Shown: in pieces, positions 3,581 through 63,786 of the stretch
Layout: each line of letters opens with the position of its first letter
How positions within the stretch are numbered: position 1 is the stretch's first letter
Source of the DNA: Nitrospirota bacterium
GTDB lineage: Bacteria > Nitrospirota > Nitrospiria > Nitrospirales > Nitrospiraceae
DNA: 64,000 nt
Assembly: GCA_040757595.1 (NCBI GenBank)
Contig: JBFLWP010000002.1
Span: forward strand, 263,832-327,831
Direction of reading: 5' to 3'
The notes under the pieces: generated by a model
The model's input: the letters and a program-made list of their open reading frames with translations, nothing else
What the model was told of the DNA's origin: nothing
The model's database searches: none
Program-made: the position numbers and the translations under genes

Positions 3581-3643
3581 GGCGCGGGGTGCGTGGCTGG
3601 AGGCGATCGTGCGGTTGCCTCTCGCCCCGAGCCTCTCGCCTTC
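3581..3643. repeat. Stuttered palindrome, GAGGC/GCCTC word family (copy 1)
   Basis: Between rodA and rng. The left arm stutters GCGGGGTGCGTGGCTGGAGGC and the right arm repeats GCCTCTCGCC twice, separated by CCGA. The arms can fold back on each other around GATCGTGCGGTT. Closely related sequences lie at 26889-26956 and 27529-27604; the third shares the GGCGATCGT centre. I see no U-run that would make it a simple terminator. Confidence 0.6.
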
Positions 3644-3659
3644 GATTTGAGGAGTGACC

Positions 3660-5173: not shown

Positions 5174-5222
5174 CAGAAGCTTTCAGCCTTCAGCGGGATT
5201 ATTCAGGCTGACGGCTGAAGGT
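5174..5222. repeat. Stuttered palindrome, TTCAGC/GCTGAA word family
   Basis: Between rng and dprA. The left arm reads TTTCAGCCTTCAGC and the right arm CAGGCTGACGGCTGAAGG; the 8-bp ends CCTTCAGC (5187-5194) and GCTGAAGG (5214-5221) are perfect inverted repeats. There is no T-run after the stem on either strand, so a simple intrinsic terminator is unlikely. Confidence 0.6.
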
Positions 5223-5246
5223 TCCAAGCCGCCTGATTGAGGATTC

Positions 5247-10762: not shown

Positions 10763-10806
10763 AGTTCAGCCCTCAGCGATCACCGCGGTGGGCTGAGGGT
10801 TGAGTG
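10763..10806. repeat. Stuttered palindrome, TCAGCC/GGCTGA word family
   Basis: TTCAGCCCTCAGC and GGCTGAGGGTTGAG face each other around GATCACCGCGGTG, itself partly palindromic (CACCGCGGTG). The stem overlaps the 3' end of the redoxin-like frame, so its last residues are encoded by the repeat. Confidence 0.55.
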
Positions 10807-11327
10807 GCGAGCACCGGCGTTTGAGCCTGGCTACTCAGTCCTGCGGATCGGTGACGGCTGCCTACCGAGCACCGTGTATCCGGGCGTTGGCTCGCGCCGA
10901 CAATCTCCAGAATTGCGGCCATGCCCCGGCCATTGAGGTCATGCACCAGGTGGAACCGAAAGAGGCCGGCCGGATCGATCAGGAACGTCTGACACCTGGC
11001 TGCCCTGCTCGTCCGCGCCATTCCGTAGCTGCGACGGAGCCGCCCCAAGGGATCGGCCAGCAGGGGGACGCGAAGCTTCCCGAACTGGCTGCACCAGGAA
11101 CTGAGCAGCGTGGGGGTGTCGGGGATCGTCGCGAGAAGGGTCGCGTCCGCCTTGGAAAAGGCCTCGGATTGCCGATCCAGAAACACGCTCTCGATCAAGC
11201 CCAGCGAGGGAGGGAAGCACAAGGCTACCCATCGGCCCTGGAAGAGAGCGGAGTCAATGTAGGTCATGGCTCCCTGGATCAGTGCCGGAACCCGGAATCG
11301 AGGCGCTTTGTCGCCGATCTGTTGCAT
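10773..11327 (-). CDS. Peroxiredoxin-like (AhpC/TSA fold) protein lacking the peroxidatic Cys
   Basis: 184 residues from ATG 11327 with GGAGG 6 bp upstream. The N-terminus (IGDKAPRFRVPAL) and the following FQGRWVALCFPPSL are thioredoxin-fold peroxiredoxin sequence, and LLADPLGRLRRSYG and TFLIDPAGLFRF match later strands. Where peroxiredoxins have P-X3-T/S-X2-C, this protein reads PPSLGLIESVFL with no cysteine, so normal peroxidase chemistry is unlikely. Two other cysteines (in SSWCSQF and ARCQTF) could act differently. The C-terminal tail after about residue 150 is low-complexity and partly encoded by a stuttered palindrome. Confidence 0.7.
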   Translation of the reverse strand: MQQIGDKAPRFRVPALIQGAMTYIDSALFQGRWVALCFPPSLGLIESVFLDRQSEAFSKADATLLATIPDTPTLLSSWCSQFGKLRVPLLADPLGRLRRSYGMARTSRAARCQTFLIDPAGLFRFHLVHDLNGRGMAAILEIVGASQRPDTRCSVGSRHRSAGLSSQAQTPVLATQPSAHRGDR

Positions 11328-25278: not shown

Positions 25279-25356
25279 TCAGCGCAATGCTGAACGAGGA
25301 ATGAGGAACGAAGGCCTCCGAATATCCCGCGTTCGTCATTCTGCATTCAGCGTTGG
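25279..25356. repeat. Stuttered palindrome, GAATG/GAACG word family
   Basis: In the divergent gap between fur and the aldehyde dehydrogenase gene. The left arm reads GAACGAGGAATGAGGAACG and the right arm CGTTCGTCATTCTGCATTC, with words GAATG and GAACG alternating and mirrored. Confidence 0.55.
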
Positions 25357-26887: not shown

Positions 26888-26888
26888 T

Positions 26889-26956
26889 GGGCCAGGGGCG
26901 CGTGGCTAGAGGCTAGAGGCCCCTCTCGCCTCGTGCCCCGAGCCTCTCGCCTGGCT
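26889..26956. repeat. Stuttered palindrome, GAGGC/GCCTC word family (copy 2)
   Basis: GCGCGTGGCTAGAGGCTAGAGGC faces CCTCTCGCCTCGTGCCCCGAG and CCTCTCGCC. It shares the CCGAGCCTCTCGCC end with the copy at 3581-3643. Confidence 0.6.
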
Positions 26957-27524: not shown

Positions 27525-27528
27525 CATA

Positions 27529-27604
27529 GGCGCGGGGCGCGAGGCACGAGGGGGCGATCGTCCTGCTGTTTCCGCCTCTTGCCTCTAGTCCCGAGCCTCG
27601 AGCC
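27529..27604. repeat. Stuttered palindrome, GAGGC/GCCTC word family (copy 3)
   Basis: GGCGCGGGGCGCGAGGCACG faces GCCTCTTGCCTCTAGTCCCG and AGCCTCGAGC around GGGGGCGATCGTCCTGC. The centre GGCGATCGT also occurs in the copy at 3581-3643. The right arm encodes the last residues and stop of the carboxypeptidase. Confidence 0.6.
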
Positions 27605-29129: not shown

Positions 29130-29147
29130 CTCGCCTCGTGCCTTCCC

Positions 29148-29187
29148 CTTAACGCCTCTTACGTCTTACGTCTGACGTTTCACGGCT
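29148..29187. repeat. Half stuttered element, TTACGT word
   Basis: CTTACGT is repeated as TTACGTCTTACGTCTGACGT, then TTCACGG, upstream of both divergent genes. Only one arm is present. Confidence 0.45.
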
Positions 29188-29257
29188 TTTCGCGGTATGA
29201 TGCCCGGCCAGTGTACGCAACCGGTTCGCCGTTTTGCAATCAGCGGGAGGAGCGAGC

Positions 29258-33793: not shown

Positions 33794-34157
33794 GCTGGAA
33801 CGGTGAACGATGAATGCTGAACGCTGAATGGGGGGGAAGACGACGGTCTTCAGTTCAGCGGCGGCAGCCGGGGAAACAATCTCCTGGGTGCCCGGTTGGC
33901 AAGGGATTGACGATGCCCGGTTGGTCTCGCAGAGGGTCCCACCGAGATTGACAATAGAAACTGCCGACAGTTGACAATAGGTTGACGATCTGCCCGCTTT
34001 GCCGGAACATCACCTCGGTCCTTCCCGCCATGGTCAGCCGCGTCTCGGTGCCTGATCGGCGTAAACTTTTCTTCAGACTGCCAGAGCCACGGGTTCAGGC
34101 ACGGTGGCTAACAACCACTCTCAGCGGTCACTGCAAGCGATCTGCTGAAGCGCGAAG
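33794..34157. other. 364-bp gene-poor stretch with a stuttered word repeat
   Basis: 33795-33862 carries GAACGGTGAACGATGAATGC and TGAACGCTGAATG, then TTCAGTTCAGCG: the GAATG/GAACG word family also seen at 25279. 33905-33995 has a second stutter (TTGACGAT, TTGACAATAG, TTGACAATAG, TTGACGAT). No convincing gene is visible. Confidence 0.5.
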
Positions 34158-35847: not shown

Positions 35848-35928
35848 TCGTGAGACGTGAAATGCCAGACGCGAGACGAAAGACCGGCTTCCTCTGAGAA
35901 CCCCTCACGCCTTACCCCTTACGGTAAG
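35848..35928. repeat. Stuttered palindrome, GTGAGACG / CTCACGCCTTAC words
   Basis: CGTGAGACGTGAAATGCCAG and ACGCGAGACG face CTCACGCCTTACCCCTTACG. The right arm encodes the final residues (VRGKA) and stop of the receiver-like protein. Confidence 0.5.
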
Positions 35929-36867: not shown

Positions 36868-36880
36868 GGATCGCAACGAA

Positions 36881-36980
36881 GAGCTGATGGCCTATGGCAA
36901 ACGGCCGATGGCACGGAACCGGGGTCAAAACCGCAGCCTCTTTTCCGGGCCATATGCCATCAGCTATAGGCCATACGCTT
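36881..36980. repeat. Stuttered palindrome, TATGGC/GCCATA word family (copy 1)
   Basis: CTGATGGCCTATGGCAAACG and GCCGATGGC face GGCCATATGCCATCAGC and TATAGGCCATACGC around about 40 bp. The same words build the element at 57022-57122. It fills the gap between thi4 and the TPR gene. Confidence 0.6.
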
Positions 36981-37782: not shown

Positions 37783-37799
37783 GGTGACTCCCTCAGAGT

Positions 37800-37866
37800 G
37801 TTCAGTTTTCAGTCGTCAGTCTTCAGTTTGAAACTGACCACTGATCACTGAGAACTGACAACTTGA
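37800..37866. repeat. Stuttered palindrome, TCAGT/ACTGA word family (best example)
   Basis: The left arm reads TTCAGTTTTCAGTCGTCAGT then CTTCAGTTTG; the right arm AAACTGACCACTGATCACTG then AGAACTGACAAC. The word CAGT occurs four times and ACTG four times, mirrored around the centre. It fills the thiC-thi4 gap. Confidence 0.65.
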
Positions 37867-37867
37867 C

Positions 37868-39910
<2,043 letters not shown>

Positions 39911-39912
39911 TC

Positions 39913-39952
39913 TCCAAAACAAAAAAGCCGCACCAGGTAGAAGGGTGCGGCT
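39913..39952 (-). terminator. Riboswitch-controlled intrinsic terminator
   Basis: Read leftward, AGCCGCACC pairs with GGTGCGGCT and is followed by TTTTTTGTTTTG. It lies about 30 bp after the TPP aptamer and before thiC, the expected place for an expression platform that ends transcription when TPP is bound. Confidence 0.85.
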
Positions 39953-39979
39953 GCCAAGAGTCTCCAAGGCCAATGGGCC

Positions 39980-40068
39980 CTGCCGCTTCCCTACGCTGGT
40001 ATTATCCAGGTCAGGTTCTGAGGGTCGTCCGTGAGATTCGGACTCTCAGCCGTGAGGCTCCCCTAGCT
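39980..40068 (-). promoter_or_regulatory. TPP riboswitch (THI element) for thiC-thi4
   Basis: On the minus strand the conserved pieces appear in order: AGGGGAGCC, GGCTGAGAGT, then CCTCAGAACCTGACCTGG, ATAATACCAGCGTAGGGAA. These form the P1-P5 arms of the thiamine pyrophosphate aptamer. It should repress the thiamine genes when TPP is plentiful. Confidence 0.95.
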
Positions 40069-40078
40069 ATGGACGGTG

Positions 40079-41427: not shown

Positions 41428-41490
41428 CGCTCAGCGGCAGCTCACAGCCCGGACCACTTTCAATCGCTGCATGCTGATGGCTGACTGCTC
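41428..41490. repeat. Stuttered palindrome, CAGC/GCTG words
   Basis: GCTCAGCGGCAGCTCACAGC faces GCTGCATGCTGATGGCTGAC, then TGC, between nadA and ileS. ileS has no recognisable Shine-Dalgarno after it. Confidence 0.5.
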
Positions 41491-41504
41491 TACGGGCGGT
41501 CTCA

Positions 41505-46784: not shown

Positions 46785-46866
46785 CCAGGCAGCATACGGC
46801 GAGCAGCGGGCAGCGAACATCCGCTGACGGCTCTGAGAGCTTTCGCGATGAGCCGTTGGCAGCGTT
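46785..46866. repeat. Stuttered palindrome, GCAGC/GCTGACGGCT words
   Basis: GGCAGCATACGGCGAGCAGC and GGGCAGCG face CCGCTGACGGCTCTGAGAGC between the HhH lipoprotein and the terminator. Confidence 0.45.
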
Positions 46867-48274: not shown

Positions 48275-48278
48275 AAAT

Positions 48279-48366
48279 CGTGACGGGTGACAGGTGACGC
48301 GTGAAAAGCATGAGGAGAGAATCGTCTGTTCGCTGCTCGTCACGCGTCACTCGTCACGCATCACGG
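48279..48366. repeat. Stuttered palindrome, GTGACG/CGTCAC word family
   Basis: CGTGACGGGTGACAGGTGAC and GCGTGAAAAGC face CTCGTCACGCGTCACTCGTC and ACGCATCACGG. The element fills the gap between macA and macB; the macB ATPase ATG follows 7 bp later without a Shine-Dalgarno. Confidence 0.65.
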
Positions 48367-48373
48367 TAACAAG

Positions 48374-57007: not shown

Positions 57008-57021
57008 GGTCCTCCTCTAAT

Positions 57022-57122
57022 AAGAGCTTATGGCGTATGGCTTATGGCAGATGGCATCAGACGAAAGCCGTCCTTCTTTCTCTTGCTCTAGCCATAAGCT
57101 ATTCGCTTTATGCCATACGCTC
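57022..57122. repeat. Stuttered palindrome, TATGGC/GCCATA word family (copy 2)
   Basis: AAGAGCTTATGGCGTATGGC and TTATGGCAGATGGC face GCCATAAGCTATTCGC and TTTATGCCATACGCTCTT. Outer ends AAGAGC and GCTCTT are perfect inverts. It shares its words with 36881-36980. Confidence 0.65.
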
Positions 57123-58710: not shown

Positions 58711-58741
58711 GAAACCGATCACAGACCACTGATAACTGAGC
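58711..58741. repeat. Half stuttered element, ACTGA word family
   Basis: GATCACAGACCACTGATAAC then TGAGC, the right-arm type of 37800-37866, ends at the pyrD ATG. pyrD has no Shine-Dalgarno; the repeat occupies its place. Confidence 0.5.
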
Positions 58742-59668
58742 ATGGATCTGTCCACCACCATCGCCGGAGTCCGTCTCCCCAGTTGCTTCATGAACGCGGC
58801 CGGCGCGCTCTGCGTGACGCGCGAGGAACTGGAGGCGCTGGGCCGGTCCCGTGCGGGTGCGATCGTCACCAAGTCGATGACTCTGGAACCGCGCCAGGGG
58901 AATCCCGAGCCGCGCTACTACGGGTTCCCGCTGGGCTCCATCAACTCGATGGGGCTCCCCAACCTCGGGTATCGGGCCTACGTCCAACTCATTCCCGATC
59001 TCAAGAAGTTCAACAAGCCGGTCATCGCGAGCATCGCCGGGTTCGGTGAAGAGGACTTCGTCACGATCGCCAAGGCGGTGAATGAGAGCCGCCCGGATCT
59101 CGTGGAAGTCAACCTGTCTTGTCCCAACATCCCCGGAGAGCCCCAGATCGGCTACGACGCGGAGGCGTCCGAGCGCCTCTTGAAGCGCGTGCGGAAGGTC
59201 CTGTCGGTGCCGATGGGCGTCAAGCTCCCTCCCTACTTCGATCCGGCCCATCATGAAAAGATCGCGAAAGTCCTTGCCGGCGTCGGCGCGGACTTCCTCT
59301 CCCTCATCAACTCGGTCGGCAACGGGCTCGTTGTCGATCCGGACAGGGAAGCCGCGGTCATCAAGCCGAAAGGAGGGTTTGGGGGGCTCGGAGGCCCGTT
59401 GATCAAACCGGTCGCGCTGGCGAACGTCAGGGCGTTCTGGAGGCTCTTCGAAGGCCGGCTCCCGATCATCGGCACCGGCGGGGTGGTCAACGGAGCCGAT
59501 GCGTTCGAGCACCTGCTGTGCGGGGCGTCGGCCGTCCAGATCGGGACGACGCTGGTCGAGGAGGGGCTCGGTTCGTTCGAGCGACTCGAGCGGGAACTGT
59601 CGGCGTGGCTGCAGAAGAAGGGCTACCGCTCTCCGGCAGACTGCCGTGGGAAGCTCAAGGAGCTCTGA
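58742..59668 (+). CDS. pyrD: Dihydroorotate dehydrogenase, class 1A-like
   Basis: 308 residues. NSMGLPNLGY, EVNLSCPNIPGEPQIGYD (catalytic Cys in SCPN), IGTGGVVNGADAFEHLLCGA and QIGTTLVEEG are DHODH motifs. The SCPNIPG-PQ sequence fits the soluble class 1A family, which commonly uses fumarate. No PyrK electron-transfer subunit is next to it, unlike class 1B. It makes orotate in pyrimidine synthesis. Confidence 0.9.
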   Translation: MDLSTTIAGVRLPSCFMNAAGALCVTREELEALGRSRAGAIVTKSMTLEPRQGNPEPRYYGFPLGSINSMGLPNLGYRAYVQLIPDLKKFNKPVIASIAGFGEEDFVTIAKAVNESRPDLVEVNLSCPNIPGEPQIGYDAEASERLLKRVRKVLSVPMGVKLPPYFDPAHHEKIAKVLAGVGADFLSLINSVGNGLVVDPDREAAVIKPKGGFGGLGGPLIKPVALANVRAFWRLFEGRLPIIGTGGVVNGADAFEHLLCGASAVQIGTTLVEEGLGSFERLERELSAWLQKKGYRSPADCRGKLKEL

Positions 59669-62777: not shown

Positions 62778-62803
62778 CCGTGACGCGTCACGCGTCACGC
62801 GCC
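62778..62803. repeat. Stuttered element, GTCACGC word
   Basis: CCGTGACGCGTCACGCGTCA then CGCGCC, convergent gap between the permease and bioB. It encodes the last residues (AARDA) and stop of BioB. The word matches 48279-48366. Confidence 0.5.
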
Positions 62804-63786
62804 GCGGGGCTATAGTCCACCTCGATGTCGAACCCCAGGTCGGCGATCATCTTCCAGGCTTCGGGGGCCGGCTGGCCCGGGGTGGTCAGGTACCCGCCGA
62901 TAAAGAGGGAGTCGGCGGGGTAGAGGGCCAGGGGCTGCAGGGTCCGCAGGTTGAACTCCCGTCCGCCGGCGATCCGGATCTCGGTCCGGGGATGGAGGAA
63001 CCGGAACAGACACAGGACCTTCAGGCACCGTTGCGGCGACAAGTGGCGCGCCTGCTCCAACGGGGTGCCCGCAACGGGATGCAGCGCGTTGAGCGGAATC
63101 GAGTGGGGTTTGACCTCCCGGAGCGCCAGCGCCAGGTCGATCACGTCCTCGTCGGTTTCCCCCATGCCGATGATGCCGCCGGAGCAGATCTCGAGCCCCG
63201 CGGCTCTGGCGTGCTCGATTGTGTCCAGCCGGTCGCGGAAGGTGTGGGTCGTGCAGATGGCCTGATGGTAGGCCTCGCTCGTGTTCAGGTTGTGGTTGAT
63301 TCGGTCCACGCCGGCGCTCTTCAGGGTCCGGGCCTGTCCCTCGCTCAGCAGCCCCAATGAGCAGCAGACCTGGATCGGGACTTCCCTCTTGATCGCCCGC
63401 ACGGCCTCGGCAATCTCCTGAAGCTCCCGGTCCAGGGGGCTCCGGCCGCTGATCACGATGCAGTAACGCTGCGCCTTGGCGGCCGCGGCGCGCCTGGCTC
63501 CCTCCATCATCTGCTCGCGCGGCACCAGCCCGTACCGTTCGATCTCGGCGGTCGAGATCGAGGATTGGGAGCAGTAGTGGCAGTCCTCCTGGCAGGCGCC
63601 GCTCTTGGCGTTCAAGAGCATCTGCAGCCTGACCGTCCGTCCGAAGTGCCGCTCGCGCACGCGGAACGCGGCGCCCAGGAGGTCCATGAGCCGCTCATTC
63701 GACGTCTGCAGAACCGTCCGGCATTCCTCGCGCGAGAGGACTTCGTCGCGCAGGGCTTTTTCGGCGAAGAGCTGAAAATCGGTCAT
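62788..63786 (-). CDS. bioB: Biotin synthase
   Basis: 332 residues from ATG 63786. The radical-SAM motif is CQEDCHYCSQ, with further BioB segments KSGACQEDCHY, INHNLNTSEAYH, CSGGIIGMGETDED and NALHPVAGTPLE. It inserts sulfur into dethiobiotin using a [4Fe-4S] and a [2Fe-2S] cluster. An in-frame start at 63825 is less likely; GGAG precedes 63786. No other bio gene is in the window. Confidence 0.95.
   Translation of the reverse strand: MTDFQLFAEKALRDEVLSREECRTVLQTSNERLMDLLGAAFRVRERHFGRTVRLQMLLNAKSGACQEDCHYCSQSSISTAEIERYGLVPREQMMEGARRAAAAKAQRYCIVISGRSPLDRELQEIAEAVRAIKREVPIQVCCSLGLLSEGQARTLKSAGVDRINHNLNTSEAYHQAICTTHTFRDRLDTIEHARAAGLEICSGGIIGMGETDEDVIDLALALREVKPHSIPLNALHPVAGTPLEQARHLSPQRCLKVLCLFRFLHPRTEIRIAGGREFNLRTLQPLALYPADSLFIGGYLTTPGQPAPEAWKMIADLGFDIEVDYSPAARDA

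Follow-up and report, generated by a model that had tools for sequence, protein, structure and literature searches.

What are the ragged palindromes that recur in the gaps between genes of a 64,000-nt stretch of a 3.37 Mb draft Nitrospira genome (C2:263832-327831; hereafter the window)? An earlier note on this DNA described eighteen loci at which a word of 5-8 bp is repeated imperfectly and its reverse complement is repeated on the opposite arm, and held them to be one architecture, built from many word families and placed mostly between co-directional genes, for which it knew no named family. The Thi4 protein encoded in the window has its nearest matches in Nitrospira/Nitrospirota genomes. 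Here, we combine a statistical analysis of these gaps with comparisons of orthologous loci and with an analysis of a protein family whose genes are enclosed by similar arrays.

Results

Paired arrays of 7-nt units in intergenic gaps

Each gap was given a score for a 5-nt core that recurs at a constant step along one arm, with its reverse complement recurring at an equal step elsewhere; the sample was the window and contig C1 (417 kb in all, with 218 gaps between 35 and 400 nt long). At period 7, 44 of the 218 gaps scored at least 4 and 28 scored at least 5, compared with 0-3 and 0 gaps, respectively, in five dinucleotide shuffles; the comparison with shuffled gaps that the earlier note had proposed thus came out in its favor. 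No coding segment of the same sample reached these scores, and at the other periods from 4 to 14 at most 11 gaps reached 4 (at period 14, a harmonic) and at most 2 reached 5. Autocorrelation of the window gaps revealed self-matching at lag 7 (z = 6.2), lag 14 (z = 4.0) and lag 21 (z = 2.9); the unit is therefore a fixed 7-mer and not a word of 5-8 bp. Each unit comprises approximately five constant and two free bases (for example, TCAGTnn, GTGACnn, TGAACGn, TATGGCn and GAGGCnn), with 2-6 units per arm and a loop of roughly 5-60 nt; cores pair with the opposite arm more than spacers (about 66% versus 46%), and the hairpins fold with low energy (median z -3.6). Among the relatives, 67 of 589 gaps in 80 other Nitrospira loci scored, versus 1 after shuffling, and a period-9 signal in these relatives may be partly explicable by the elements with 9-nt units described below. 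We conclude that the paired 7-nt-word hairpins are a real, non-random feature.

Fourteen of the eighteen loci score at least 4 for paired 7-nt arrays, against 0 of 330 coding windows of equal size (Table 1), and the shared architecture, the many word families, the intergenic location and the dissimilarity to REP and ERIC elements were all borne out. As to exceptions, 33795 has one clear array, and 35848, 41428 and 46785 score 3-3.5; at 29148 and 58711 the words pass, but folding is no better than in shuffles. The preference for co-directional gaps is real in the count (38 of 44 scoring gaps) but only mild as an enrichment, because 171 of all 218 gaps are co-directional; the avoidance of divergent gaps in the relatives, where 0 of 70 carry a hairpin, is the clearer signal. 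In the gaps inspected by eye, no T-run is obvious after the hairpins. A TPP riboswitch is the only Rfam match above the gathering score in the window, and the hairpins have none; the TCAGT hairpin of the thiC leader (region 39812-40074) lies between this aptamer (39971-40074, minus strand) and thiC.

Table 1. Heptad arrays and hairpins of the window, in positions counted from its first nucleotide
Feature	Position	Strand	Score	Folding z	Remarks
Heptad hairpin, GAGGC family	3581..3645	+	4.5	-2.1
Heptad hairpin, TCAGC family	5181..5225	+	4.0
Short heptad hairpin, TCAGC family	10763..10812	.	4.0		1/100 shuffles as high
Heptad hairpin, TGAACG/TGAATG family	25279..25350	+	5.0	-2.3
Heptad hairpin, GAGGC family	26888..26955	+	6.5
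Heptad hairpin, GAGGC family	27528..27600	.	4.5		Convergent gap
Heptad array, ACGTC family	29130..29205	.	5.0	+0.7	Partner arm weak or missing
Single heptad array, TGAACG/TGAATG	33795..33845	+	Tandem 4.0, double-arm 0		Second arm not found
Weak heptad hairpin, GTGAGAC family	35848..35915	-	3.5
Heptad hairpin, TATGGC family	36876..36975	-	7.0	-4.3
Heptad hairpin, TCAGT family	37790..37860	-	8.0	-3.1	thiC-thi4 gap; same-family hairpin in L009
Heptad hairpin, TCAGT family	39837..39905	-	6.0	-5.8	thiC leader
Weak heptad hairpin, TCAGC-like	41428..41500	+	3.5
Weak candidate	46785..46860	+	3.0		Indistinguishable from shuffles at period 7 (17/100 as high)
Heptad hairpin, GTGACG family	48277..48368	+	7.0	-5.6
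Heptad hairpin, TATGGC family	57015..57120	-	5.5	-5.4	AAGAGC ends
Short array, TCAGT-like	58711..58745	+	4.5	+1.4	Single arm
Short GTGACG array with partner	62778..62805	.	5.5	-1.8	Convergent gene ends; other periods 3-3.5

Turnover at orthologous gaps

Alignment of sister species, also proposed in the earlier note, revealed gain, loss and word switching: orthologous gaps with 92-97% identical flanks can differ in content, being empty in one species and occupied in others by a hairpin, by one built on a different word or by another kind of repeat element. Between thiC and thi4, the gap is empty and only 9-14 nt long in about 26 species, and others have hairpins of TCAGT, TCAGC, CGTTAA or TGATGGC, or a REP-like 140-nt element, the hairpin lying between the stop codon and the ribosome-binding site. 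Four loci (L013, L024, L037 and L068) have at this place a small PF05635 gene between arrays, one (L036) retains the truncated start of such a gene, and L034, L051, L067, L073 and L075 retain apparent scars of a single arm. The few pairs available for empty/filled comparison at thiC-thi4 gave no clear target-site duplication. Where orthologous hairpins persist, cores differ at 7.2% of positions and spacers at 17.3% (14 pairs, counting only those with a detectable hairpin).

Seeding of arrays by the local stop codon was suggested by a CGTTAA array that starts in the thiC stop codon, but it is not general, because other words occupy the same place. In two comparisons (L009:6288 with L045 and L037:7716 with L046) the hairpins are 86-89% alike and the coding flanks 77-80%, a difference that may reflect either transfer or constraint. 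An inverted element of ~130-150 nt (AAAAAGGTC...GGCAAGGCCGCAGGGAGTGCG...CTTTTTCAGC) stands beside thi4 in many Nitrospira (L020, L023, L031, L042, L054, L060, L081 and others); it is separate from the heptad hairpins and looks like a REP/MITE-type family.

PF05635 genes lie between complementary arrays

PF05635 is the 23S rRNA intervening-sequence protein (IVP or S23p, 'four helix bundle protein'). Six genes of this genome match the family, and of these three are degraded or partial; the genes are located outside the window, hence the link was invisible from the window alone. By eye, at least five of the six lie between complementary heptad arrays. For a cross-gene test we used 100 IVP genes whose flanks were complete, some from Nitrospirales and others on plasmids of other phyla, and required that an array on one side of the gene have its match on the other side; this test replaced an earlier flank control permitting both arms on one side, because solo hairpins beside control genes had contaminated that control. 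Arrays were found at 72 of the 100 IVP genes at period 7 and at 92 of 100 at any period from 6 to 9, compared with 4 of 311 ordinary genes, 0 of 100 shuffled flanks and 24 of 100 sets of flanks swapped between genes. On plasmids of Cyanobacteria, Alphaproteobacteria, Gemmatimonadota and Bacteroidota, 13 of 15 IVP loci (L248-L262) score at least 4.5.

The unit of the array-flanked elements is 7 nt in 71, 8 nt in 14, 9 nt in 4 and 6 nt in 3. Period 8 (L154, L198, L208, L209, L142, L201 and L257), period 9 (L226, L230, L194 and L197) and period 6 (L210, L229 and L014) are grouped by protein clade. As judged with a simple in-house gene finder, 77 of 87 IVP genes point the same way as the co-directional genes on either side of them, and one is antisense; the 5' array has more G than C in 47 elements versus 6. 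The closest IVP paralogues of any one genome share no more than 41-59% identity. An IVP gene on an Oscillatoria plasmid (L260) is flanked by GGGAGAGTGG arrays that run in the same direction instead of being inverted.

Array word and unit length follow the protein

For IVP pairs in different genomic contexts, sharing of arrays rises from 15% at 25-35% protein identity to 39% at 45-55%, 63% at 55-65% and 84% at 65-75%. On the IVP tree, period requires 9 changes (shuffled mean 20.1, minimum 17) and word class 12 (shuffled mean 35.3, minimum 31); phylum shows no clear clustering (64 of 500 shuffles as low), and plasmid copies from other phyla are scattered among those of Nitrospirota. Thus, gene and arrays travel together, and word and unit length (6-9 nt) track the protein tree across phyla and contexts. 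When proteins have diverged this far, one would expect short non-coding arrays to have become scrambled if they were free of constraint. Judging from these sequence comparisons, the IVP protein may read the words of its arrays; co-inheritance alone, without recognition, may be the source of part of the co-variation.

Solo hairpins compared with IVP elements

Solo hairpins and IVP elements have period, strand polarity and insertion gaps in common; in solo hairpins the G-rich arm is 5', in the direction of the host gene, in 57 cases versus 8. Hairpin density is 3.8 per 100 kb in 13 IVP genomes versus 0.8 in 7 IVP-free genomes (p = 0.01, Spearman 0.56, uncorrected for phylogeny), and some IVP-free genomes (G054 and G022) still carry hairpins. 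None of 162 hairpin gaps holds an IVP trace, which gives no sign of a gradually decaying ORF within them. Near-identical copies are also absent: ten window hairpins compared with the rest of the genome reach at best 81% over 69 nt, which is unlike MITEs or REPs, and possible explanations are serial horizontal acquisition with subsequent loss of the ORF, or arrays that are rapidly rewritten. The words of solo hairpins match the IVP words of their own genome no better than those of other genomes, and the measure does not discriminate between genomes.

Discussion

The paired arrays around IVP genes suggest one overlooked, horizontally spread parasitic element, and the hairpins of the window are probably ORF-less members of this IVS-type selfish element, inserted in sense inside operons. 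This reading brings together the paired arrays in gaps, the arrays around nearly all IVP genes and the way in which word and unit length vary along with the protein, as well as the sense orientation between co-directional genes, the turnover at orthologous gaps and the mixing of phyla on the IVP tree. The interpretation of the earlier note is supported in part. A full element would consist of a 5' degenerate 7-nt array, G/purine-rich in the sense strand, a PF05635 gene and a complementary 3' array. We propose that the IVP protein recognizes its own arrays in units of 6-9 nt and that the arrays fold back in the host mRNA, where the insert would be tolerated or cut out, by analogy with the action of RNase III on 23S rRNA IVSs. 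Solo hairpins would arise from or alongside full elements, the ORF being lost or never present. A self-encoded retro-mechanism is unlikely in this genome, because it has no recognizable RVT_1; a reverse transcriptase partner was also considered across 81 genomes, of which 23 have RVT_1, with no evident agreement with the IVP pattern.

Alternatively, the hairpins may be intercistronic RNA structures kept by the host to adjust how its mRNA is processed or how long it lasts (RNase III/E sites, operon balance), for which any pairing word would serve and IVP genes would be present by chance or as guests. The sense polarity (57 versus 8), the placement between stop codon and ribosome-binding site, the low folding energy and the conserved cores all fit such a role, yet presence and word change quickly in the same gap between sister species with 92-97% identical flanks, and IVP genes of several phyla are flanked by the same arrays, with word and period tracking the protein; we consider this explanation unlikely. 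Still less probable is a neutral origin as simple-sequence repeats, proposed by Mrazek et al. (cited in PMC4679880), in which the polymerase would generate the repeats by slippage and template switching and its contact would fix the unit at 7 nt. Among the long SSRs of many genomes, heptamers are the most frequent class, with unit-wise indels reported (PMC4679880), and near-identical copies are lacking here as well; against this, array pairs straddle one gene family (92/100 versus 4/311), unit lengths of 6, 8 and 9 are tied to protein clades, cores are more conserved than spacers, and strand polarity is present. A REP/REPIN or MITE family moved by a standard transposase (RAYT, DDE) would likewise be intergenic, palindromic, quick to turn over and, by extrapolation, present in hundreds per genome, but it is highly improbable given the many unrelated words, a best copy of 81% over 69 nt and Y1_Tnp genes that lack such flanking arrays. 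The genome has three Y1_Tnp matches, and neither of the two loci inspected is array-flanked.

The IVS-type reading connects the hairpins with known systems. In Coxiella burnetii, the S23p ORF of the 23S rRNA IVS is preceded by tandem GACAGAT heptamers of variable copy number, the ends of the IVS form a stem, and RNase III excises this insert, which has been termed a selfish element (PMC4990558). The Nitrospira hairpins have the complementary stem-forming ends of such an IVS, and their full-length relatives have the PF05635 protein and tandem heptamers upstream of the ORF. In contrast, the hairpins lie between protein-coding genes and not in a 23S rRNA helix, use many word families and, in the window, have no ORF or IVP trace, unlike their full-length relatives at other sites of the genome. 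Because both the rRNA insertion and the ORF are missing in the window, we do not class these hairpins as proven members of the rRNA IVS family.

Cyanobacterial STRRs are grouped with TAACTGA-type 7-nt tandem repeats as a related system, and the Nitrospira hairpins share the tandem 7-nt unit of heptameric repeats (SSR/STRR) in general. The TAACTGA repeats of Beggiatoaceae, Cyanobacteria and Bacteroidetes (PMC4679880) resemble the hairpins in their 7-nt tandem units, intergenic location and patchy occurrence across phyla, and TAACTGA is complementary to the word of the TCAGT(TA) family; however, they are described as direct, mostly without a partner arm, and with no reported IVP association. The GGGAATC repeats of Xanthomonas and the GGGGA(C/T)T repeats of Nostoc are intergenic, degenerate 7-nt units, with 70-75 convergent inverted pairs per genome in Xanthomonas; the authors found no connection with mobile elements and do not mention IVP genes (PMC4692102). 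One main word prevails per genome in Xanthomonas and Nostoc, whereas Nitrospira hairpins use many. The design is thus not wholly without precedent (PMC4692102, PMC4679880 and PMC4990558). Heptamer repeats and rRNA IVSs were each described before, but a full-text literature search, with most subscription papers outside its coverage, returned no paper that connects such arrays to IVP genes.

More broadly, and tentatively, these systems may belong to one class of mobile element in at least five phyla, made up of nothing more than the gene of a ring-forming four-helix-bundle protein and the inverted short-word arrays around it, read by the protein in steps of 6-9 nt, and which would move without a known transposase or self-encoded reverse transcriptase; it would cover 23S IVSs, the heptamers of cyanobacteria, Xanthomonas and Beggiatoa, and the Nitrospira hairpins. 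If so, the long-unexplained heptamer repeats and the 23S rRNA intervening sequences would have a common origin, and there would be a simple way to ask what the ring protein binds. XCC0516 of Xanthomonas campestris (PDB 2gsc), an IVP-family protein of solved structure, is a pentameric ring. IVP is also distantly related to Avd of diversity-generating retroelements (NCBIfam Avd model, E 3e-6; Pfam bAvd, 5e-4), a homology also stated in PMC10053308; unlike those retroelements, this Nitrospira genome has no reverse transcriptase.

To our knowledge, PF05635 'four helix bundle' genes are common and have no known function. Surveys have listed them among the possible components of CRISPR systems or retroelements (PMC10910872, PMC10053308), associations that would need another reading if PF05635 is the ORF of a heptad-armed parasite. 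Two array-bearing copies on cyanobacterial plasmids (L255 and L256) lie inside cas operons, one between cas6 and cas4 and the other between cas10 and a Cmr3-family gene.
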